Positions 3,300-30,542 of a DNA stretch of 53,245 nt are shown in pieces. Position 1 is the first letter of the stretch, and each line of letters begins with the position of its first letter. A model generated the notes under the pieces. The model was not told where the DNA came from, searched no databases, and worked only from the letters and a program-made list of their open reading frames with translations. Location of the stretch: the NCBI GenBank assembly GCA_018402155.1, contig JAGYJG010000002.1:1-53245 (forward strand). The letters are read 5' to 3'. The position numbers and the translations under genes are program-made. This DNA is from Bacteroidia bacterium (GTDB taxonomy: Bacteria > Bacteroidota > Bacteroidia > NS11-12g > UBA9320).

Positions 3300-4194
3300 A
3301 GAATTATTGATTAGTTATGGGTGAGGGATTCAGGATTTTTGACGCAGTAATTTCAGCTTTGAATGGATAGGCTGCAGGCACAAGACTAATTAGCGTTAAA
3401 CAACAGCCTTGTTTTTCACAAATGCCACTGCAGGGTTTTATTTTGCGCCTGTGGAGCACTAGAGGACGCAGTCCTCTAACCCCTGCGGCTGCCGCGAGCT
3501 TAGCGAGAGGCAAAAATGGCGCAGAACTTGCGCCTAAGGTGTACTTTTTTGTACCCAAAAGACGGTGGGTCACACGTTTGTTTTTGGGTAATCATTGATT
3601 GAATTATTCCTTAAAATAGCCAAACGAAAAAAGTGTCGCTCGCTACGCTCGCGAATCGTCTGGGGGAAAGGGCTATCGCCCTTAAAAACCGCTTTTTTAG
3701 TATGCGAGAAACACAATCATCAAAAAACAACAAGCGACACAAGGCCAACTGCCTCCAAAAGTTATCCGCATTGTTGGACGCTATTTACTTGATAATGTGC
3801 ATGTTATGTTGTACCTTAAAATTTCCCATAAAAATTTCCCATAAAAATTTCCCTTAAAAATTAAATAGTGCTATATTCACGGAATCAATCAATGAAAACG
3901 ACGTGAAAACGCGCTAAACAACGTAGCTAGTTGCAAGGCCGAAAAAAGCAAAAAAATGGTGCTGTATTTAGCACAACACAGGTAAAAAATGCTTCTCTTC
4001 AAACGGATTTATGTTTCTTTTGTATTTAGTGATTATTTCTTTCGGTAATCAGAGTTTTGGTGGAACCTATAGTTCTTAGCTTTTTGGCTAAGTGCGGCTC
4101 TGTTAGCGTCTTTTGAGTTATTTTTGAGCGTGCCGTAGGGTATGGCTCTTATTTTTATGTATCGGAGCACAAGTTCCACAAATTTTTAAATTTT
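3300..4194. other. Gene-free, hairpin-rich spacer of about 900 bp
   Basis: No convincing gene is present; the open frames here lack family likeness and look like read-through of GC-rich debris. What can be seen: a hairpin TAGAGGA/TCCTCTA at 3460-3478; a GC-rich block (about 3480-3540); a hairpin AAGGGC-TATC-GCCCTT at 3668-3683; three tandem ~14-bp repeats of AAAATTTCCCAT type at about 3817-3862; and a hairpin CTTAGC/GCTAAG at 4075-4092. A 22-codon ATG frame at 4011-4079 (MFLLYLVIISFGNQSF...) could encode a tiny secreted peptide but has no support. Confidence 0.5.
3817..3862 (+). repeat. Short tandem repeat, about 14-bp unit
   Basis: The unit AAAATTTCCCATA is present three times in a row (the last with CCCTT), on the + strand. 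It lies in the gene-free spacer between pdhB and the lipoprotein pair and could vary in number by slippage. Confidence 0.6.
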
Positions 4195-4839
4195 ATGAAA
4201 AAGTATGTTTTTATTTTAGCGGCCGTGGTTTTAGGAACTGTGGCTTGTAATGAGAGAGAAATTCAAAGAACAAATCCAAGTGAAGCAGATGTAATAGAAT
4301 CCGCTCCAATACCTGATTACGACGATAAACCATTGAAAAACTTCTGTAAAGGTTGTGGTGTATCAAACATTGCTGCTGACGGATGTCACGGGGCAGATTG
4401 TAGAGAAGATCATATTTGCGAAATGGCTAGAGCGGAGGATATAGCTTCAGATGCAAATGTGCCATTTGACCTAAGCTTTAATGAAGCATATGAAATCCGT
4501 GACAGTTTCCTAGTAAACTCATTGAAAGGACAGGATTATATTTCTCATTTTTATGAGTTCGGTGGGTTTCTAGTCGACAACAACCTTATAAATTCCTCCA
4601 ATATTATTGATTTTATAAGTTTTGGTCACGAAGTGTATGACGCAGTGGATGTTGTACGTAATGGTAGTGAAAATTCCATAGTTGTAAATGCTCAATTGAA
4701 GTCTACTTGTTTATCTTATATAAACCTAATAAGATCACACAATCCACCGCAGTATATTACTACTCGCTTAGATATGGTCGCAGATGATTTAGATTTATTT
4801 GAAGGTCAGCAGAGAAGTTTTATTCTATCACACTTATGA
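4195..4839 (+). CDS. Putative lipoprotein with a cysteine cluster, unknown function
   Basis: The 214-residue protein starts with a lipoprotein signal (MKKYVFILAAVVLGTVAC), with the lipidated cysteine at position 18. After a 30-residue linker come C51, C54, C64, C69 and C75 with nearby H65 and H73, spaced CxxC-x9-C-x4-C-x5-C, in KNFCKGCGVSNIAADGC and HGADCREDHIC. This could bind a metal or form disulfides in the periplasm. The rest appears helical and is not recognised. Its stop codon overlaps the ATG of the next gene by four bases (ATGA), so the two are probably translated together. Confidence 0.7.
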   Translation: MKKYVFILAAVVLGTVACNEREIQRTNPSEADVIESAPIPDYDDKPLKNFCKGCGVSNIAADGCHGADCREDHICEMARAEDIASDANVPFDLSFNEAYEIRDSFLVNSLKGQDYISHFYEFGGFLVDNNLINSSNIIDFISFGHEVYDAVDVVRNGSENSIVVNAQLKSTCLSYINLIRSHNPPQYITTRLDMVADDLDLFEGQQRSFILSHL

Positions 4840-5408
4840 TAAAAATGGCAATACCATTTGTTATTGTTCTATTTTCTTTGATTTCTTGCAGTAGTTCGCA
4901 GGAAAAAATAGGTTCTTACACAGGTGTTTATACATCACATCTACCGAGAATTGGTCCGCTTATTAGAATTCAAGAAAAAAAGCATAACGGTAAGATGGTA
5001 CCGATGTCTGCATATATGGTTTATCTGAGAGCGGACGGCACATTTGTTATGGGTGGTTGTGACTTACAGATTAGAGAGGCTGGTAGGTATTTAGTGGAAC
5101 CAGATAGTATTATTCTAACTGACATTTACAGCTTTAGGCAAGAATCAAAATTGCCAGATAAAAAGTTTTTCTTTGACCAGAGTTCCAACTCCATTTATTA
5201 TCGTCATTCCAATCCAGATTCATTAACTTACATAAGGTATCCTGAAAGCATTGCGATACTGGAATTGGGATTCATTAGAAGTCACTTAGGCTTTTTGAGA
5301 AATCAAGAAATGAGGCTAGATTCTCTATTGACCTATAACAAATTTCTAACATACGATGAGCAAATGGTTTGGGTAGAGAGTAGGTTAACTATTAAAACGG
5401 CGGATTAA
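4836..5408 (+). CDS. Putative lipoprotein, unknown function
   Basis: This 190-residue protein begins with MIKMAIPFVIVLFSLISC, a lipoprotein signal with the lipobox cysteine at position 18. The mature part is rich in beta-type segments (TGVYTSHLPR, YMVYLRADGTFVMGG) and could be a small lipocalin-like or barrel-like fold, but I recognise no family. The start codon overlaps the stop of the preceding cysteine-cluster lipoprotein, implying one operon. A start three codons later (4845) is also possible. Confidence 0.7.
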   Translation: MIKMAIPFVIVLFSLISCSSSQEKIGSYTGVYTSHLPRIGPLIRIQEKKHNGKMVPMSAYMVYLRADGTFVMGGCDLQIREAGRYLVEPDSIILTDIYSFRQESKLPDKKFFFDQSSNSIYYRHSNPDSLTYIRYPESIAILELGFIRSHLGFLRNQEMRLDSLLTYNKFLTYDEQMVWVESRLTIKTAD

Positions 5409-5620
5409 TAATAGACGAACCACCAACACTATGTATATGTAATGCCGCTTTTGTACACGCTGTAAGGCGGCACTTACGCATAGACAAAACCTTTACAAAT
5501 AGCAAGTGACGGAAGCTTACGCCATAGTTTTTACTCGCTTAAATTAATAAGCAATAATGAAGTCCAATATTTAAAAATTTACATTGATTAGATATGAGAA
5601 ATTTAACAATCATAGTCCTT

Positions 5621-5656
5621 ATCATCCCTACAAGCCGAAAGGCTTGTAGGGATGAT
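5621..5656. other. Perfect 16-bp hairpin with GAAA tetraloop
   Basis: ATCATCCCTACAAGCC at 5621-5636 pairs perfectly with 5641-5656 around the loop GAAA. The 3' arm continues ATTGTTTAA-like sequence that is repeated as TTTAACAATCAT just before the 5' arm, so the stem would extend if a 12-bp stretch (AGTCCTTATCAT) bulged out. There is no T run, so it is not a typical terminator. It sits 20 bp before repeat array 1. Confidence 0.7.
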
Positions 5657-5677
5657 TGTTTAACCTGTCCAGATAAA

Positions 5678-6457
5678 ATGCTTGGAGTCTTAATGCGAGG
5701 GTGGACCGGAGTCCTGAGCAAGATGCTTGGAGTCTTAATGCGAGGGTGGACCGGAGTCCTGAGCAAGATTGCAAGCCTTCGTCTTGCAATGACGTCAGTC
5801 GTCTGTCGGTATGTGGCACTTCGCCACGGTAGTACTCCATGGCATTTAGCAGATTCAGAGCGAAGCGCCGAATCTCATTATACACCTTCACGAAGCACCG
5901 TCACTCCAAGCAAAATGCTTGGAGTCTAAATTGGACGCGGAAACGGAGTCCAGAGCAAGATGCTTGGAGTCTAAATGGGAGGGAAGACCGGAGTACTGAG
6001 TAAAATGCTTGGAGTCTGAATGCGAGGGTGAACCGGAGTACTGAGCAAGATGCTTGGAGTCTGAATGCGATTATGAAACGGAGTCCTGAGCAAGATTGCT
6101 TGGAGTCTTTATGCGAGGGTGGACCGGAGTACTCAGTAAGATGCTTGGAGTCTGAATGCGAGGGAGGACCGGAGTCCAGAGCAAAGTGCTTGGAGTCTGA
6201 ATGGGATTATGAAACGGGGTCCAGAGTAAGATTGCAAGCCTTCGTCTTGCAATGACGTCAGTCGTCTGTCGGTGTGCGGCACTTCGCCACGGTAGTACTC
6301 CATGGCATTTAGCAGATTCAGAGCGAAGCGCCGAATCTCATTATACACCTTCACGAAGCACCGTCACTCCAAGCAAAATGCTTGGAGTCTGAATCGGATT
6401 ACGGACCGGAGTCCTGAGTAAGATTGCTTGGAGTCTAAATGCGAGGTTGAGCGCAAC
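5678..6457. repeat. Composite repeat array 1 (45-bp units plus two 147-bp elements)
   Basis: Short units begin at 5678, 5723, 5915, 5960, 6005, 6050, 6095 (46 bp, one extra T), 6141, 6186, 6378 and 6423 (the last broken). Each starts with TGCTTGGAGTCT, has a variable core of about 11 bp (for example GCGAGGGTGGA, GGATTATGAAA, GGACGCGGAAA) and ends CGGAGT(A/C)CTGAG(C/T)AAG. Long elements of exactly 147 bp lie at 5768-5914 and 6231-6377. Each long element holds hairpins ATTGCAAG/CTTGCAAT, GTGGC/GCCAC and AGATTC/GAATCT, and its end ACTCCAAGCA pairs with the start of the next short unit (TGCTTGGAGT) around AAA. Open frames inside it are by-products. A second array of the same family is at 28905-30016. 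Confidence 0.9.
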
Positions 6458-6474
6458 AAATAAAACACGCTATT

Positions 6475-7827
6475 TCAAGCAAAAATTAGGTCAAACATCT
6501 GACGTACATTACCTACTTTGTGCATTTTTATGCTAAAACCAGCTTGACTGATGTCCAACTGATCGGACATTAAAAAATCAGTAAAACCAAGTTTTTCCGC
6601 TTCCTTAAGTCGTTGATCTATCCTATTAATTCCCCGTATTTCTCCGCTTAGCCCTATTTCCCCAGCAAAAACCATCTTGTTGGGCAATGCCAAATTTTGC
6701 ATTGATGACACAATAGAGGCGGCTATACCTAAATCTGTGGCGGGGTCATTTATTTTGAGTCCTCCTGCTATATTAACAAATACGTCGTGTTGGCTCAGTT
6801 TATATCCACAACGCTTTTCGAGCACAGCTAGTAGCATATTGAGGCGTTTTATGTCATATCCATTTGTGTTTCTTTGTGGGTTGCCATATACTGCTGCACT
6901 CACTAGTGCTTGTGTTTCTATCATCAAGCAACGGTTGCCTTCTAGCGAGGCCACCACGCCTACGCCACTTAGGTTTTCGCTTCGCTGGTTTATGAGGATC
7001 TCGCTTGGATTATCGATTTCTCGCATACCTGCTGAAGTCATTTCATAGATACCTAATTCTAGGCTACTCCCAAATCTGTTTTTGAGTGTGCGCAGTATGC
7101 GATAGCTGTTTTGAGTTTCACCTTCAAACTGTAATACGGTATCTACCATGTGTTCCAATAGTTTTGGCCCAGCGAGTTGGCCATCTTTGGTTATATGTCC
7201 TACCAGTATTATAGGTACTTCGTTTTGCTTGGCATATTGTATGAGCAATGAGCTGCTCTCCCGTATTTGCGAGATGGTGCCAGGGGTAGAATCGAGGTAT
7301 TTACTATACATAGTTTGTATAGAGTCTATAATGACAAAAGCGGGTTTAACTTCTTTCATTTTTCCGATGATATTTTCTACGGAGGTCTCATTGAGTAGCA
7401 AGCAATCTTCGTTGGTTATACCTATACGGTCGGCACGCATTTTTATCTGGTTTAAACTCTCTTCGCCACTCACATAAAGCACACGCTTATTCATACGTAA
7501 GGCGCTTTGCAGTAGCAGTGTAGATTTTCCTATGCCGGGCTCACCTCCCAAAAGTATGACGGACCCTGGCACAATTCCTCCACCCAGCACTCTATTGAGC
7601 TCTATACCGGGAGCTTTTAATCGTTTGAGCTCGATGGCGTCTACATTATGTATTGGGGTTACTACACCGTCTATATCATTGAGGTTCATCATACCACCGC
7701 TCGTAGATTGCACAATCACTTCTTCTACTATTGTATTGTACTCGCCACAAGAAAAGCATTTGCCCATCATCTTGGCGTAGTTGCTTCCGCAGTTTGAGCA
7801 GATATATACTTTTTTAGCTTTGGCCAT
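6475..7827 (-). CDS. radA: DNA repair protein RadA (Sms)
   Basis: The 450-residue protein is a full-length RadA/Sms, a cytoplasmic hexameric ATPase that drives branch migration of recombination intermediates. Seen in order: a zinc ribbon with C10, C13, C24 and C27; a Walker A motif GGEPGIGKST at 94-103; Walker B-type FVIIDSIQ near 164-171; the RadA signature KNRFG at 249-253; and a Lon-protease-like C-terminal domain (GGLKINDPATDLGIAASI) that lacks protease function in the family. The gene ends only ~20 bp from repeat array 1 and is transcribed toward it. Confidence 0.97.
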   Translation of the reverse strand: MAKAKKVYICSNCGSNYAKMMGKCFSCGEYNTIVEEVIVQSTSGGMMNLNDIDGVVTPIHNVDAIELKRLKAPGIELNRVLGGGIVPGSVILLGGEPGIGKSTLLLQSALRMNKRVLYVSGEESLNQIKMRADRIGITNEDCLLLNETSVENIIGKMKEVKPAFVIIDSIQTMYSKYLDSTPGTISQIRESSSLLIQYAKQNEVPIILVGHITKDGQLAGPKLLEHMVDTVLQFEGETQNSYRILRTLKNRFGSSLELGIYEMTSAGMREIDNPSEILINQRSENLSGVGVVASLEGNRCLMIETQALVSAAVYGNPQRNTNGYDIKRLNMLLAVLEKRCGYKLSQHDVFVNIAGGLKINDPATDLGIAASIVSSMQNLALPNKMVFAGEIGLSGEIRGINRIDQRLKEAEKLGFTDFLMSDQLDISQAGFSIKMHKVGNVRQMFDLIFA

Positions 7828-7953
7828 ATTTTTATCGTATTTTAATCAAGCGAAAATGGGTGTTTTTATACTCTTATGAAAATTTTATGGTGTTTTGATG
7901 CACCTTTGAACGAAGTAAACTAAAAAGAAACATTAAAATAATGTTCAAAAACG

Positions 7954-27449: not shown

Positions 27450-28895
27450 ATGTCGGAAAATAAAATTAGTAAGAAAGCTGCACTTCATATTTGGGAGGCA
27501 CTGCTGCCGGTAGTAGCCTTGGTGGCAATGTTGGGGTACAATGTCTTTGTTTTTAAGGATGACGCTATTTCTGGGAGCAATCAGTTTGTACTGCTACTAG
27601 GTGCGGCTGTAGCTGGGGTAGTAGGGTATTTTAATAGGGTTAGTTTCTCTGTTATGATGGATAATGTGGGTAATAATTTAAAGTCAGTAAGTGGTGCTAT
27701 ACTCATTTTACTATTGGTGGGCTCGCTTGCTGCGGCGTGGCTAGTGAGTGGTATTATTCCTGCTATGATTTTTTATGGTATCAAACTTATAAATCCAACG
27801 GTATTCTTACCCACTGCAGTCATTATCAGCGCATTGGTTTCTGTAGCTACCGGTAGTTCTTGGACTACTAGCGCTACCATCGGCATAGCACTCGTAGCCA
27901 TAGGTGAGGCTATAGGATTGCCTGCAGGCATGGTGGCAGGTGCGGTTATTAGCGGTGCATATTTTGGCGATAAAATGAGCCCACTGAGTGATACTACAAA
28001 CCTAGCCGCTGCTATGGCAGGCACCACTCTATTTACCCATATAAGATACATGGCGTACACTACAGTGCCTACTATTGTGATTACGCTTATTGTATTTTCG
28101 GGTTTTAGTATGAATTATTCAGTGGGTGAGGTACAGGGTACAGAGGTTCTTTTGGCCTCTATAGCGGAAAAATTTTATATTACTCCGTGGCTTTTTGTAG
28201 TTCCACTTATAGTGATAGGACTCATAGTAAAAAAAGTGCAGCCACCGATAGCTTTGCTAGTAGGCACGCTTCTTTCTGTAGTGCCTTTTGTGCTTTTTCA
28301 GATGGATATATTGATAGATGCCACGAGTGGATCAGTAGTGCAGCAGGTATACCATTATTTTATGGGGGCTATAACTACGGGAGTAGAAGTACAAACAAGT
28401 AATAATGTACTCAATGATCTTTTTTCTTCTGGCGGAATGAGTGGGATGCTGGGTACCGTGTGGCTCATTATCTGTGCAATGGTTTTTGGCGGAGTAATGG
28501 AGGCTATAGGAGCATTGAGTAAAATAAGTGAAGCACTACTAAGTTTAGCCAGTACCGTTTTTGGTCTATTTGCTAGTACGGTAGCTAGCTGTTTAGCACT
28601 CAATATCACGGCAAGTGACCAATACCTTGCTATAGTAGTGCCGGGTAAAATGTTTGAAAAAGCATACAAAGACAAAGGTCTGGCACCTGAAAACCTAAGT
28701 AGGACCCTCGAAGATAGCGGTACAGTGACTTCTGCCCTAGTACCGTGGAATACGTGTGGAGCTTACCAAAGCGGGGTTTTGGGTGTAGGAGTAAGCGAAT
28801 ATTTTGTGTATGCTATTTTTAATTATCTCAGCCCGTTTATGACCCTATTGGTTGCAGCGTTTAAGATTAAAATTGCACAGATATCAGCGAAATAA
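27450..28895 (+). CDS. nhaC: NhaC-family Na+/H+ antiporter
   Basis: The 481-residue protein has about 12 membrane segments and NhaC hallmarks: VATGSSWTTSATIGIALVAI, GAVISGAYFGDKMSPLSDTT and DSGTVTSALVPWNTCGAYQS. It exchanges Na+ for protons across the inner membrane (pH and salt homeostasis). It ends 10-20 bp before repeat array 2, which therefore starts within the gene's 3' untranslated region. Confidence 0.94.
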   Translation: MSENKISKKAALHIWEALLPVVALVAMLGYNVFVFKDDAISGSNQFVLLLGAAVAGVVGYFNRVSFSVMMDNVGNNLKSVSGAILILLLVGSLAAAWLVSGIIPAMIFYGIKLINPTVFLPTAVIISALVSVATGSSWTTSATIGIALVAIGEAIGLPAGMVAGAVISGAYFGDKMSPLSDTTNLAAAMAGTTLFTHIRYMAYTTVPTIVITLIVFSGFSMNYSVGEVQGTEVLLASIAEKFYITPWLFVVPLIVIGLIVKKVQPPIALLVGTLLSVVPFVLFQMDILIDATSGSVVQQVYHYFMGAITTGVEVQTSNNVLNDLFSSGGMSGMLGTVWLIICAMVFGGVMEAIGALSKISEALLSLASTVFGLFASTVASCLALNITASDQYLAIVVPGKMFEKAYKDKGLAPENLSRTLEDSGTVTSALVPWNTCGAYQSGVLGVGVSEYFVYAIFNYLSPFMTLLVAAFKIKIAQISAK

Positions 28896-28904
28896 CAGAT
28901 TTTA

Positions 28905-30016
28905 CTGCAAGCAAGATTGCAAGCCTTCGTCTTGCAATGACGTCAGTCGTCTGTCGGTATGCGGCACTTCGCCACGGTAGTACTCCATGGTATTTAGCAG
29001 ATTCAGAGCGAAGCGCCGAATCCCATTATACACCCACACGAAGCACCGTCACTCCAAGCAAAATGCTTGGAGTCTAAATGGGATTATGGACCGGAGTACT
29101 GAGCAAAATGCTTGGAGTCTGAATGGGAGGGTGGACCGGAGTACTGAGCAAGATGCTTGGAGTCTGAATGGGATTATGGACCGGAGTACTGAGTAAGATT
29201 GCAAGCCTTCGTCTTGCAATGACGTCAGTCGTCTGTCGGTATGCGGCACTTCGCCACGGTAGTACTCCATGGCATTTAGCAGATTCAGAGCGAAGCGCCG
29301 AATCCCATTATACACACACACGAAGCACCGTCACTCCAAGCAAAATGCTTGGAGTCTAAATTGGATTACGGACCGGAGTCCTGAGTAAGGTGCTTGGAGT
29401 CTGAATGCGACGCGGAAACGGAGTACTAAGCAAGATTGCAAGCCTTCGTCTTGCAATGACGTCAGTCGTCTGTCCGCATGTGGCACTTCGCCACGGTAGT
29501 ACTCCATGGCATTTAGCAGATTCAGAGCGAAGCGCCGAATCTCATTATACACACACACGAAGCACCGTCACTCCAAGCAAAATGCTTGGAGTCTGAATTC
29601 GATTATGGACCGGAGTACTGAGCAAAATGCTTGGAGTCTGAATGGGAGGGAAGACCGGAGTACTGAGCATGGTGCTTGGAGTCTGAATGGGATTATGGAC
29701 CGGAGTACTGAGTAAGATTGCAAGCCTTCGTCTTGCAATGACGTCAGTCGTCTGTCGGTATGCGGCACTTCGCCACGGTAGTACTCCATGGTATTTAGCA
29801 GATTCAGAGCGAAGCGCCGAATCCCATTATACACGCACACGAAGCACCGTCACTCCAAGCAAAATGCTTGGAGTCTAAATGGGATTATGGACCGGAGTAC
29901 TGAGCAAAATGCTTGGAGTCTGAATGGGAGGGAAGACCGGAGTACTGAGCATGGTGCTTGGAGTCTGAATGGGATTATGGACCGGAGTACTAACTCATGG
30001 TGCTTGGAGTCTGAAT
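28905..30016. repeat. Composite repeat array 2 (45-bp units plus four 147-bp elements)
   Basis: Four long elements of exactly 147 bp lie at 28916-29062, 29198-29344, 29435-29581 and 29717-29863. Short units of exactly 45 bp begin at 29063, 29108, 29153; 29345, 29390; 29582, 29627, 29672; 29864, 29909, 29954 and 29999 (truncated). Ends and hairpins are as in array 1 (5678-6457): every long element starts ATTGCAAGCC and ends ACTCCAAGCAAA, every short unit starts (A/G)TGCTTGGAGTCT. Unit cores alternate between GGGATTATGGA and GGGAGGGTGGA-like forms, and blocks such as long element + 3 units recur almost unchanged, showing copying within the array. No transposase is present. Open frames here are by-products. 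Confidence 0.92.
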
Positions 30017-30062: not shown

Positions 30063-30542
30063 TTACTCGCCAGCGGTGATGTCCTCTATTTCTAGCGTAT
30101 AGTCATATTGTAGGTCTTCGTGCATTTTGCTAACGGTTTTTTTGGCCAGTTCCATTTGTCTATAAAACATATTGCCTAGAACGCTGCTAGTTCTGTTGGG
30201 GTCTATATGCTGTAGGCGGCGGCAAAAGTGAATGAGAAGTGCAGCCTCTGTTTCTGGCTTTTTAGAAAATTTGACGTATTTCTTGACCATACGCAAAATT
30301 TTGCGCGTGCTTTTTTTGATGTAGTAGTAGTGCTGTTGTTTCATACCGTCAAATTCTGCGTCTATGTATTCCTTTATTGCATCTACGTAGCCGTCTTCGT
30401 TACTTTCTTCAAAAAGCAGATAGGTGAGTAGTTCCTTGTTTTCTACTTTGTATTTTCCTACTCGCAGCAATATAGTCATTAATTCATCTTTAGAGAGGTG
30501 GTGTAGCTCTCTTTTGATGTGCGTTATGGATACGGGTTTCAT
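30063..30542 (-). CDS. Conserved hypothetical protein
   Basis: The 159-residue protein is charged and mostly helical (ITHIKRELHHLSKDELMTIL, KENKELLTYLLFEESN-like region, YYYIKKSTRKILRMVKKYVK). It lacks a signal peptide or membrane segment, so is cytoplasmic. I have seen this pattern in Bacteroidota proteins of unknown function but recognise no domain. It lies seven bases after the VF530-type gene and is probably co-transcribed with it. Confidence 0.75.
   Translation of the reverse strand: MKPVSITHIKRELHHLSKDELMTILLRVGKYKVENKELLTYLLFEESNEDGYVDAIKEYIDAEFDGMKQQHYYYIKKSTRKILRMVKKYVKFSKKPETEAALLIHFCRRLQHIDPNRTSSVLGNMFYRQMELAKKTVSKMHEDLQYDYTLEIEDITAGE

Follow-up and report, generated by a model that had tools for sequence, protein, structure and literature searches.

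The window, that is, the whole stretch of 53,245 nucleotides analyzed here, is the entire contig C3 of a 2.49-Mb assembly that is 99.6% complete. It carries two repeat arrays, array 1 at positions 5678-6457 (780 bp) and array 2 at positions 28905-30016 (1112 bp), and these coordinates agree with a preliminary description of this DNA, which had reported two arrays built from one pair of modules. Both arrays are intergenic, flanked by convergent genes, and come within 10-18 bp of a stop codon. Array 1 is situated between a lipoprotein-like ORF (4836-5408, plus strand) and radA (6475-7827, minus strand) and ends 18 bp short of the radA stop codon, while array 2 begins 10 bp past the stop codon of an nhaC-type Na+/H+ antiporter gene (27450-28895, plus strand) and is followed by an ORF at 30063-30542 on the minus strand. 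Stop codons were found in all six frames of both arrays, ruling out a coding repeat, and a search for tRNAs found none. Because radA occurs in the genome as a single copy, only on this contig, and is 93% identical to radA of close congeners, the contig is not foreign; by its gene content the genome is assigned to the Bacteroidota. In 14 of the 15 congeners checked, panD lies at most 1.5 kb from radA; it is absent there in the window, where radA is followed by array 1 and two lipoprotein-like ORFs (5600-7850), so that gene order changes where array 1 is located. Among the congeners with a detected nhaC, most (G013, G005, G004 and G001 among them) have a homologue of the 30063-30542 ORF roughly 50-130 bp after this gene, with no array between them. 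Other repeats were also observed in the window. Positions 2-301 and 1444-1743 form a 300-bp direct repeat (90% identical), each copy of which encodes the C-terminal part of a DegT-type aminotransferase; an ORF with a Bro-N domain (432-1271) separates the copies, and the contig starts within the first of them. An intergenic short tandem repeat, AAAATTTCCCATA, is present in 3.5 copies at 3818-3862.

With the short-unit register fixed by placing the cut before ATGCTTGG, the arrays resolve into short units (S) and long modules (L) as follows:

5678-6457, plus strand: array 1, S S L S S S S S S S L S and a truncated S
28905-30016, plus strand: array 2, L SSS L SS L SSS L SSS and a truncated S
5768-5914, plus strand: long module 1 (array 1), 147 bp
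6231-6377, plus strand: long module 2 (array 1), 147 bp
28916-29062, plus strand: long module 3 (array 2), 147 bp
29198-29344, plus strand: long module 4 (array 2), 147 bp
29435-29581, plus strand: long module 5 (array 2), 147 bp
29717-29863, plus strand: long module 6 (array 2), 147 bp
6050-6095, 6378-6423 and 29954-29999: 46-bp short units
6424-6449 (array 1) and 30000-30016 (array 2): truncated closing short units

We counted 21 complete short units and six long modules, in keeping with the more than twenty short and six long copies reported earlier. The strict lengths that had been claimed held for the long module, which is 147 bp in six of six cases, but not throughout for the short unit, which is 45 bp in 18 of 21 cases and 46 bp in the other three. 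The long modules are 95-99% identical to one another, with pairwise differences at 1-7 of 146 positions.

The short unit has constant ends and a variable core, as described previously, and the core comes in a few versions, AGGGTGGACC, ATTATGGACC, ACGCGGAAAC and others, that recur across both arrays. Since these few versions are common to the two arrays, they do not represent unique spacers. An array of cassettes with acquired variable cores, like a CRISPR or an integron, would account for the constant ends and for a variable core of about 11 bp; the cores, however, are far too short for spacers and are found repeatedly, both inside each array and from one array to the other, a scan of 18 window ORFs gave no cas and no integrase gene, and the modules match no phage, plasmid or viral-contig sequence. 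This explanation has a negligible probability and is already refuted by the recurrence of the cores. Exact patterns of the modules scanned against viral contigs gave no match, nor did array 2 when compared by blastn with plasmids and phages, and a plasmid or phage origin of the arrays was rejected.

Several features bear on how the arrays change:

5678-5767, plus strand: identical adjacent pair of 45-bp units, a recent tandem duplication
29063-29197, plus strand: three 45-bp units after long module 3, the first exactly identical to 29864-29908 and the third to 29672-29716

Four short units are exactly repeated, including identical non-adjacent units in array 2, and a higher-order block of 282 bp repeats around positions 28913, 29432 and 29714. 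Core variants are common to both arrays in a different order, 63 of 91 site pairs violate the four-gamete condition, and units differ by 6.9 within an array versus 7.6 between arrays (permutation p 0.027). These patterns, read from a single genome, indicate that the arrays probably change by recombination or slippage, with duplication and exchange of units, although recurrent mutation could be a partial source of the mosaic variants. Because variants are shared by both arrays, a multi-unit piece rather than one unit most likely links the two sites. The view of the arrays as a recombining repeat family, put forward in the preliminary description, thus finds support in the identical distant units, the 282-bp block, the four-gamete violations and the reordered shared variants.

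We then resolved the long module into its component hairpins, of which the following are examples:

29198-29224, minus strand: left CGTC-tagged palindrome, minus-strand reading CGTC ATTGCAAG ACGAAGG CTTGCAAT, the same in six of six modules
29329-29355, plus strand: right CGTC-tagged palindrome, CGTC ACTCCAAGC AAAAT GCTTGGAGT, the same in six of six modules
5851-5875, plus strand: inner stem-loop AGATTC...GAATCT, the second conserved hairpin of a half element found across the genus

The module is an inverted pair of CGTC-tagged palindromes whose GACG and CGTC tags point inward, with inner stem-loops, so that each long element indeed contains several hairpins, as had been claimed. The left palindrome, ATTGCAAG-7-CTTGCAAT followed by GACG, has a stem of 8 bp and a loop of 7 nt; the right stem, ACTCCAAGC, is 9-10 bp long with a 5-nt loop (AAAAT) and a C-G second pair, and its 3' arm is the start of the following 45-bp unit. 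When the window was scanned blindly for hairpins tagged (C/T)GTC, perfect or near-perfect, all 12 palindromes were recovered, plus one marginal TGTC hairpin elsewhere; shuffled windows averaged 0.2 hits. The halves of the module are copies of each other in inverted orientation (alignment p about 0.0005, about 1 in 2000 shuffles aligning better), and as a DNA strand the long module is more stably folded than its shuffles (z -3.5). The short unit extends from the 3' arm of a hairpin into the 5' arm of the following hairpin. The 3' arm of the unit, TGCTTGGAGTCT, does not vary and has the same sequence as the arm closing the long module. The 5' arm is changed and its pairing imperfect; a CGTC tag is lacking.

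Sensitive model searches of the window's own genome confined the 147-bp and 45-bp sequences to arrays 1 and 2; chance was excluded by E-values down to 7e-16 for the 45-bp model (2.5-Mb genome) and down to 6.5e-46 for the long module. Exact patterns of either module gave no further copies in a large genome collection. The long-module sequence model matched congener G010 at two places (E 1.3e-4 and 0.004), one element being a single copy of 161 bp (C20:49257-49417) with the order palindrome-GACG, stem-loops, CGTC-palindrome. The 147-bp module aligns with this single-copy element over its full length, with the tags and both terminal stems kept; 6 of the 23 assigned pairs are changed on both sides and still pair, and one breaks. 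A structured covariance model built from the window modules and the G010 C20 element matched further G010 loci (C50, 5e-7; C27, 8e-7; C55, 7e-5; also C25 and, more weakly, C24), one G013 locus (C128, 2e-7) and one locus in the own genome (C1:254824-254971, E 0.003), which lies 16 bp past a stop codon and has a palindrome with a single mismatch over 10 bp. Weaker matches occurred in G005 and others; we make no claim for those in G007, G008, G009 and G006, with E of 0.07 or above, and the G007 C136, G008 and G009 matches, when read, were without the element. An independent palindrome pattern found C1:254946, G013 C128 and four G010 loci, while its reversed control gave one hit across 19 genomes; two short AT-rich matches of the pattern (own C1:2084351 and G008) resemble chance. 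The dispersed copies, nearly all of them intergenic, amount to about six loci in G010, one in G013 and one clear singleton on the own C1.

Alignment of these elements defined a half element consisting of a GA(T/C)TC...GA(A/G)TC stem-loop, about 25-30 bp, CGTC and a palindrome of the type ATTCCAAAG-N5-CTTTGGAAT (9-10 bp). Across nine aligned half elements, 94% of cells pair for the named structure and 14 cells carry two-sided changes, compared with a shuffle mean of 6.0 (none of 500 shuffles reached 14); the structure collapses when the partner is slid by one column. The stems of the dispersed elements are maintained by compensatory changes, and the 147-bp module is an inverted dimer of the dispersed genus half unit with its tags inward. 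The tag is CGTC in 12 of 12 array palindromes and in all but two of the scored genus relatives, the exceptions being a G010 member with ATATC and a decayed member at 1297 kb on the own C1, which is likely an old one and resembles an element in G005 C240. The genus relatives have a 9-bp stem (ATTCCAAAG), mostly with a 5-nt loop, and the palindrome tails read C(T/C)N (CTA, CTC, CCA), one being exactly CCA.

A superfamily of CGTC-tagged REPs was defined by Di Nocera, De Gregorio and Rocco in 2013 and already reported from Bacteroidetes (PMC3733652). Its members have a stem of 8-9 bp whose first two pairs are A-T, a loop of 4-5 nt and a CCA-type tail, and they were described as having no dedicated transposase (PMC3733652). 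Consistent with this class, in our elements CGTC directly precedes an 8-10-bp palindrome led by A-T pairs, inverted dimers enclose structured spacers, and the repeated, dispersed extragenic copies are sited by 3' ends and have no dedicated transposase; the location of the arrays, between convergent genes and near a stop codon, also agrees with the published REP distribution. The loops, mostly of about 5 nt, and the short C-rich tail (CTA, CTC or CCA) resemble those of the class in part. The elements differ from the class in that their tags point inward (as defined for GTAG dimers), the left loop has 7 nt, the second pair of the right stem is C-G in the window modules, each palindrome comes with a second conserved stem-loop (GATTC), the copy number per genome is very low and, in the window genome, the dimer is tandemly amplified with a derived 45-bp unit. 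CGTC REP dimers predominantly have their tags outside (HH), those with tags inside (TT) being rare, but this is a predominance and not a requirement for membership (PMC3733652). The preliminary description had named no REP layout for the arrays; this does not hold for the long module, which is built of CGTC-tagged REP palindromes with dispersed relatives in the genus (PMC3733652).

If the arrays were instead a plain minisatellite (VNTR), the likeness to CGTC REPs would be a coincidence of hairpin-rich sequence. Head-to-tail tandem units of fixed length, recombining variants, a species-restricted sequence and a 45-bp unit with no homology elsewhere are all features of such repeats; the units here, however, are built from a dispersed palindromic element and have a two-module higher-order structure, and the full-length alignment of the 147-bp module with the G010 single-copy element, including tags and compensated terminal stems, largely refutes this explanation for the long module. 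We consider it unlikely overall.

No homologue of the 45-bp unit was detected outside the arrays by a model search of congeners, by alignments or by scanning the dispersed elements with the short-unit model, which gave nothing; weak model matches in congeners were rejected, since they resembled coding sequence or chance. It is therefore solely the shared arm that points to derivation of the 45-bp unit from a REP hairpin. Other tandem hairpins were observed in the genus. In G010, a CGTC palindrome and its preceding spacer form a two-copy head-to-tail tandem with a 60-bp period (C25:39.1-39.2 kb; L117:1100-1225), an element that overlaps the 3' end of an open frame; it shows, on a small scale, that such duplication occurs in the genus, although its sequence is not demonstrably related to the 45-bp unit. 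A different 55-bp tandem repeat, with the internal palindrome GGACTTTTTAAAAGTC, lies near the end of G005 contig C274 (L034:4284-4407), about 1.4 kb downstream of an nhaC homologue. Homology of the 45-bp unit to either tandem was rejected, as alignments were no better than shuffles. There may be further tandem hairpin arrays in the genus, possibly breaking assemblies.

The position of the arrays next to stop codons between convergent genes would also be expected of a selected structured non-coding RNA or transcription-end element that provides strong 3'-end processing or termination signals, and a function at 3' ends is presumed for the REP hairpins of the literature. Folding is in part consistent with such a role, the minus strand of the long module giving z -3.6 and the plus strand of tandem short units z -0.5 to -2.5, but the favored strand is then inconsistent between the two. 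In addition, one arm of the short-unit hairpin varies while the other is invariant, nhaC is followed by no array in most congeners, and Rfam gave no match anywhere in the window at the gathering score, while array 2 had none even at E<=10, by which a known RNA family was rejected. Selection for such a role is improbable in our judgment; we regard the arrays as tolerated extragenic repeats that may act at transcript ends.

To look for the helper suggested in the preliminary description, we searched for Y1 transposases (Y1_Tnp, PF01797) and found none in the own 99.6%-complete genome (G000). Four matches were present in three congeners (G013, G018 and G010), and 5 of 14 control genomes also had matches. 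The G010 gene (C2:39577-39912) contains two in-frame TAA stops and is probably a decayed RAYT, in the congener richest in CGTC elements. The G018 gene (L079) is flanked by near-identical blocks at 1160-1470 and 1960-2200 (CGTGTCACCGCTATGCGGTT..., GACGTGCCGCCGCGATGCGGCTACA), apparently the REP sequences cognate to this gene. An actively moving REP/REPIN family driven by a RAYT (Y1/HuH) transposase, with the arrays as insertion hot spots, would explain the palindrome with its tetranucleotide tag, the inverted dimers and the dispersed single copies in the genus, and the Y1_Tnp genes of G013, G018 and (with its two stops) G010 would fit. The window elements share with GTAG REPs and REPINs their short extragenic palindromes, inverted dimers and preference for convergent intergenic regions. 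They differ, however, in their CGTC tag, in the lack of a RAYT in the genome and in forming tandem arrays, with module copies at two sites only; moreover, the repeats flanking the G018 locus, the single Y1_Tnp locus read, are different, with no CGTC palindrome in the scan, and CGTC REPs are described without a dedicated transposase (PMC3733652). Because the own genome has no Y1/RAYT transposase, present-day spread driven by a RAYT is not supported, and we give this explanation little credence. The dispersed elements show that the CGTC family spread in the past. The mobility claimed earlier is thus supported historically, by the low-copy dispersed elements, but not for the present, with the modules at two sites and no Y1/RAYT; of the unknown source of replication functions that had been invoked, none was found and none is needed.

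An architectural parallel is provided by Neisseria, whose dRS3 repeats are CGTC-1 elements (PMC3733652) and, together with RS modules of 30-160 bp, build intergenic arrays of 200-2700 bp (PMC3898611). Like these neisserial intergenic mosaic elements (NIMEs), the window arrays are intergenic, fall within the 0.2-2.7 kb size range and alternate CGTC-class palindromes with longer modules of fixed length, an arrangement thought to promote recombination (PMC3898611, PMC3733652). They differ in number, two arrays standing against hundreds of dRS3 copies, in composition, with a single long module and a single short unit in place of diverse RS families, and in showing no evidence of phage integration (no phage or viral match to the arrays). 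To say that the window arrays would work like a NIME array seems a fair description, the likeness being one of architecture, with no claim of neisserial membership. Taken together, the arrays are likely a lineage-specific, NIME-like tandem amplification of a CGTC-REP dimer and a derived 45-bp hairpin unit. According to this model, one CGTC-REP dimer would have lain downstream of a gene in the window lineage, and its right-hand palindrome together with new spacer DNA would have given rise to the 45-bp unit, running from mid-hairpin to mid-hairpin. Replication slippage and unequal recombination between hairpins could then have multiplied single units and whole L+S blocks, keeping unit lengths fixed while reshuffling variants, and a piece of several units would have been copied, in one direction or the other, between the two sites, which are 23 kb apart. 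Most likely the arrays are non-coding 3'-end DNA that is tolerated where convergent genes meet, and they would serve at most as transcript-end hairpins. What we describe looks like an unusual arrangement of ordinary extragenic repeats and not a new mobile system.

A 147-bp module that could not be classified by eye thus turns out to be built from a known repeat class. CGTC REPs are a widespread orphan class for which no transposase is known and about which there is little information outside Proteobacteria. There is a small chance that the arrays are an active, diversifying CGTC REP recombination locus, at which an unrecognized non-Y1 enzyme acts on inward-tagged dimers; if true, this would supply the missing mobilizer of the CGTC superfamily and a Bacteroidota counterpart of the neisserial mosaic arrays. 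Within one genus, one CGTC element is seen singly, as inverted dimers, as a two-copy tandem and in full composite arrays, and with such a graded series array formation becomes testable.
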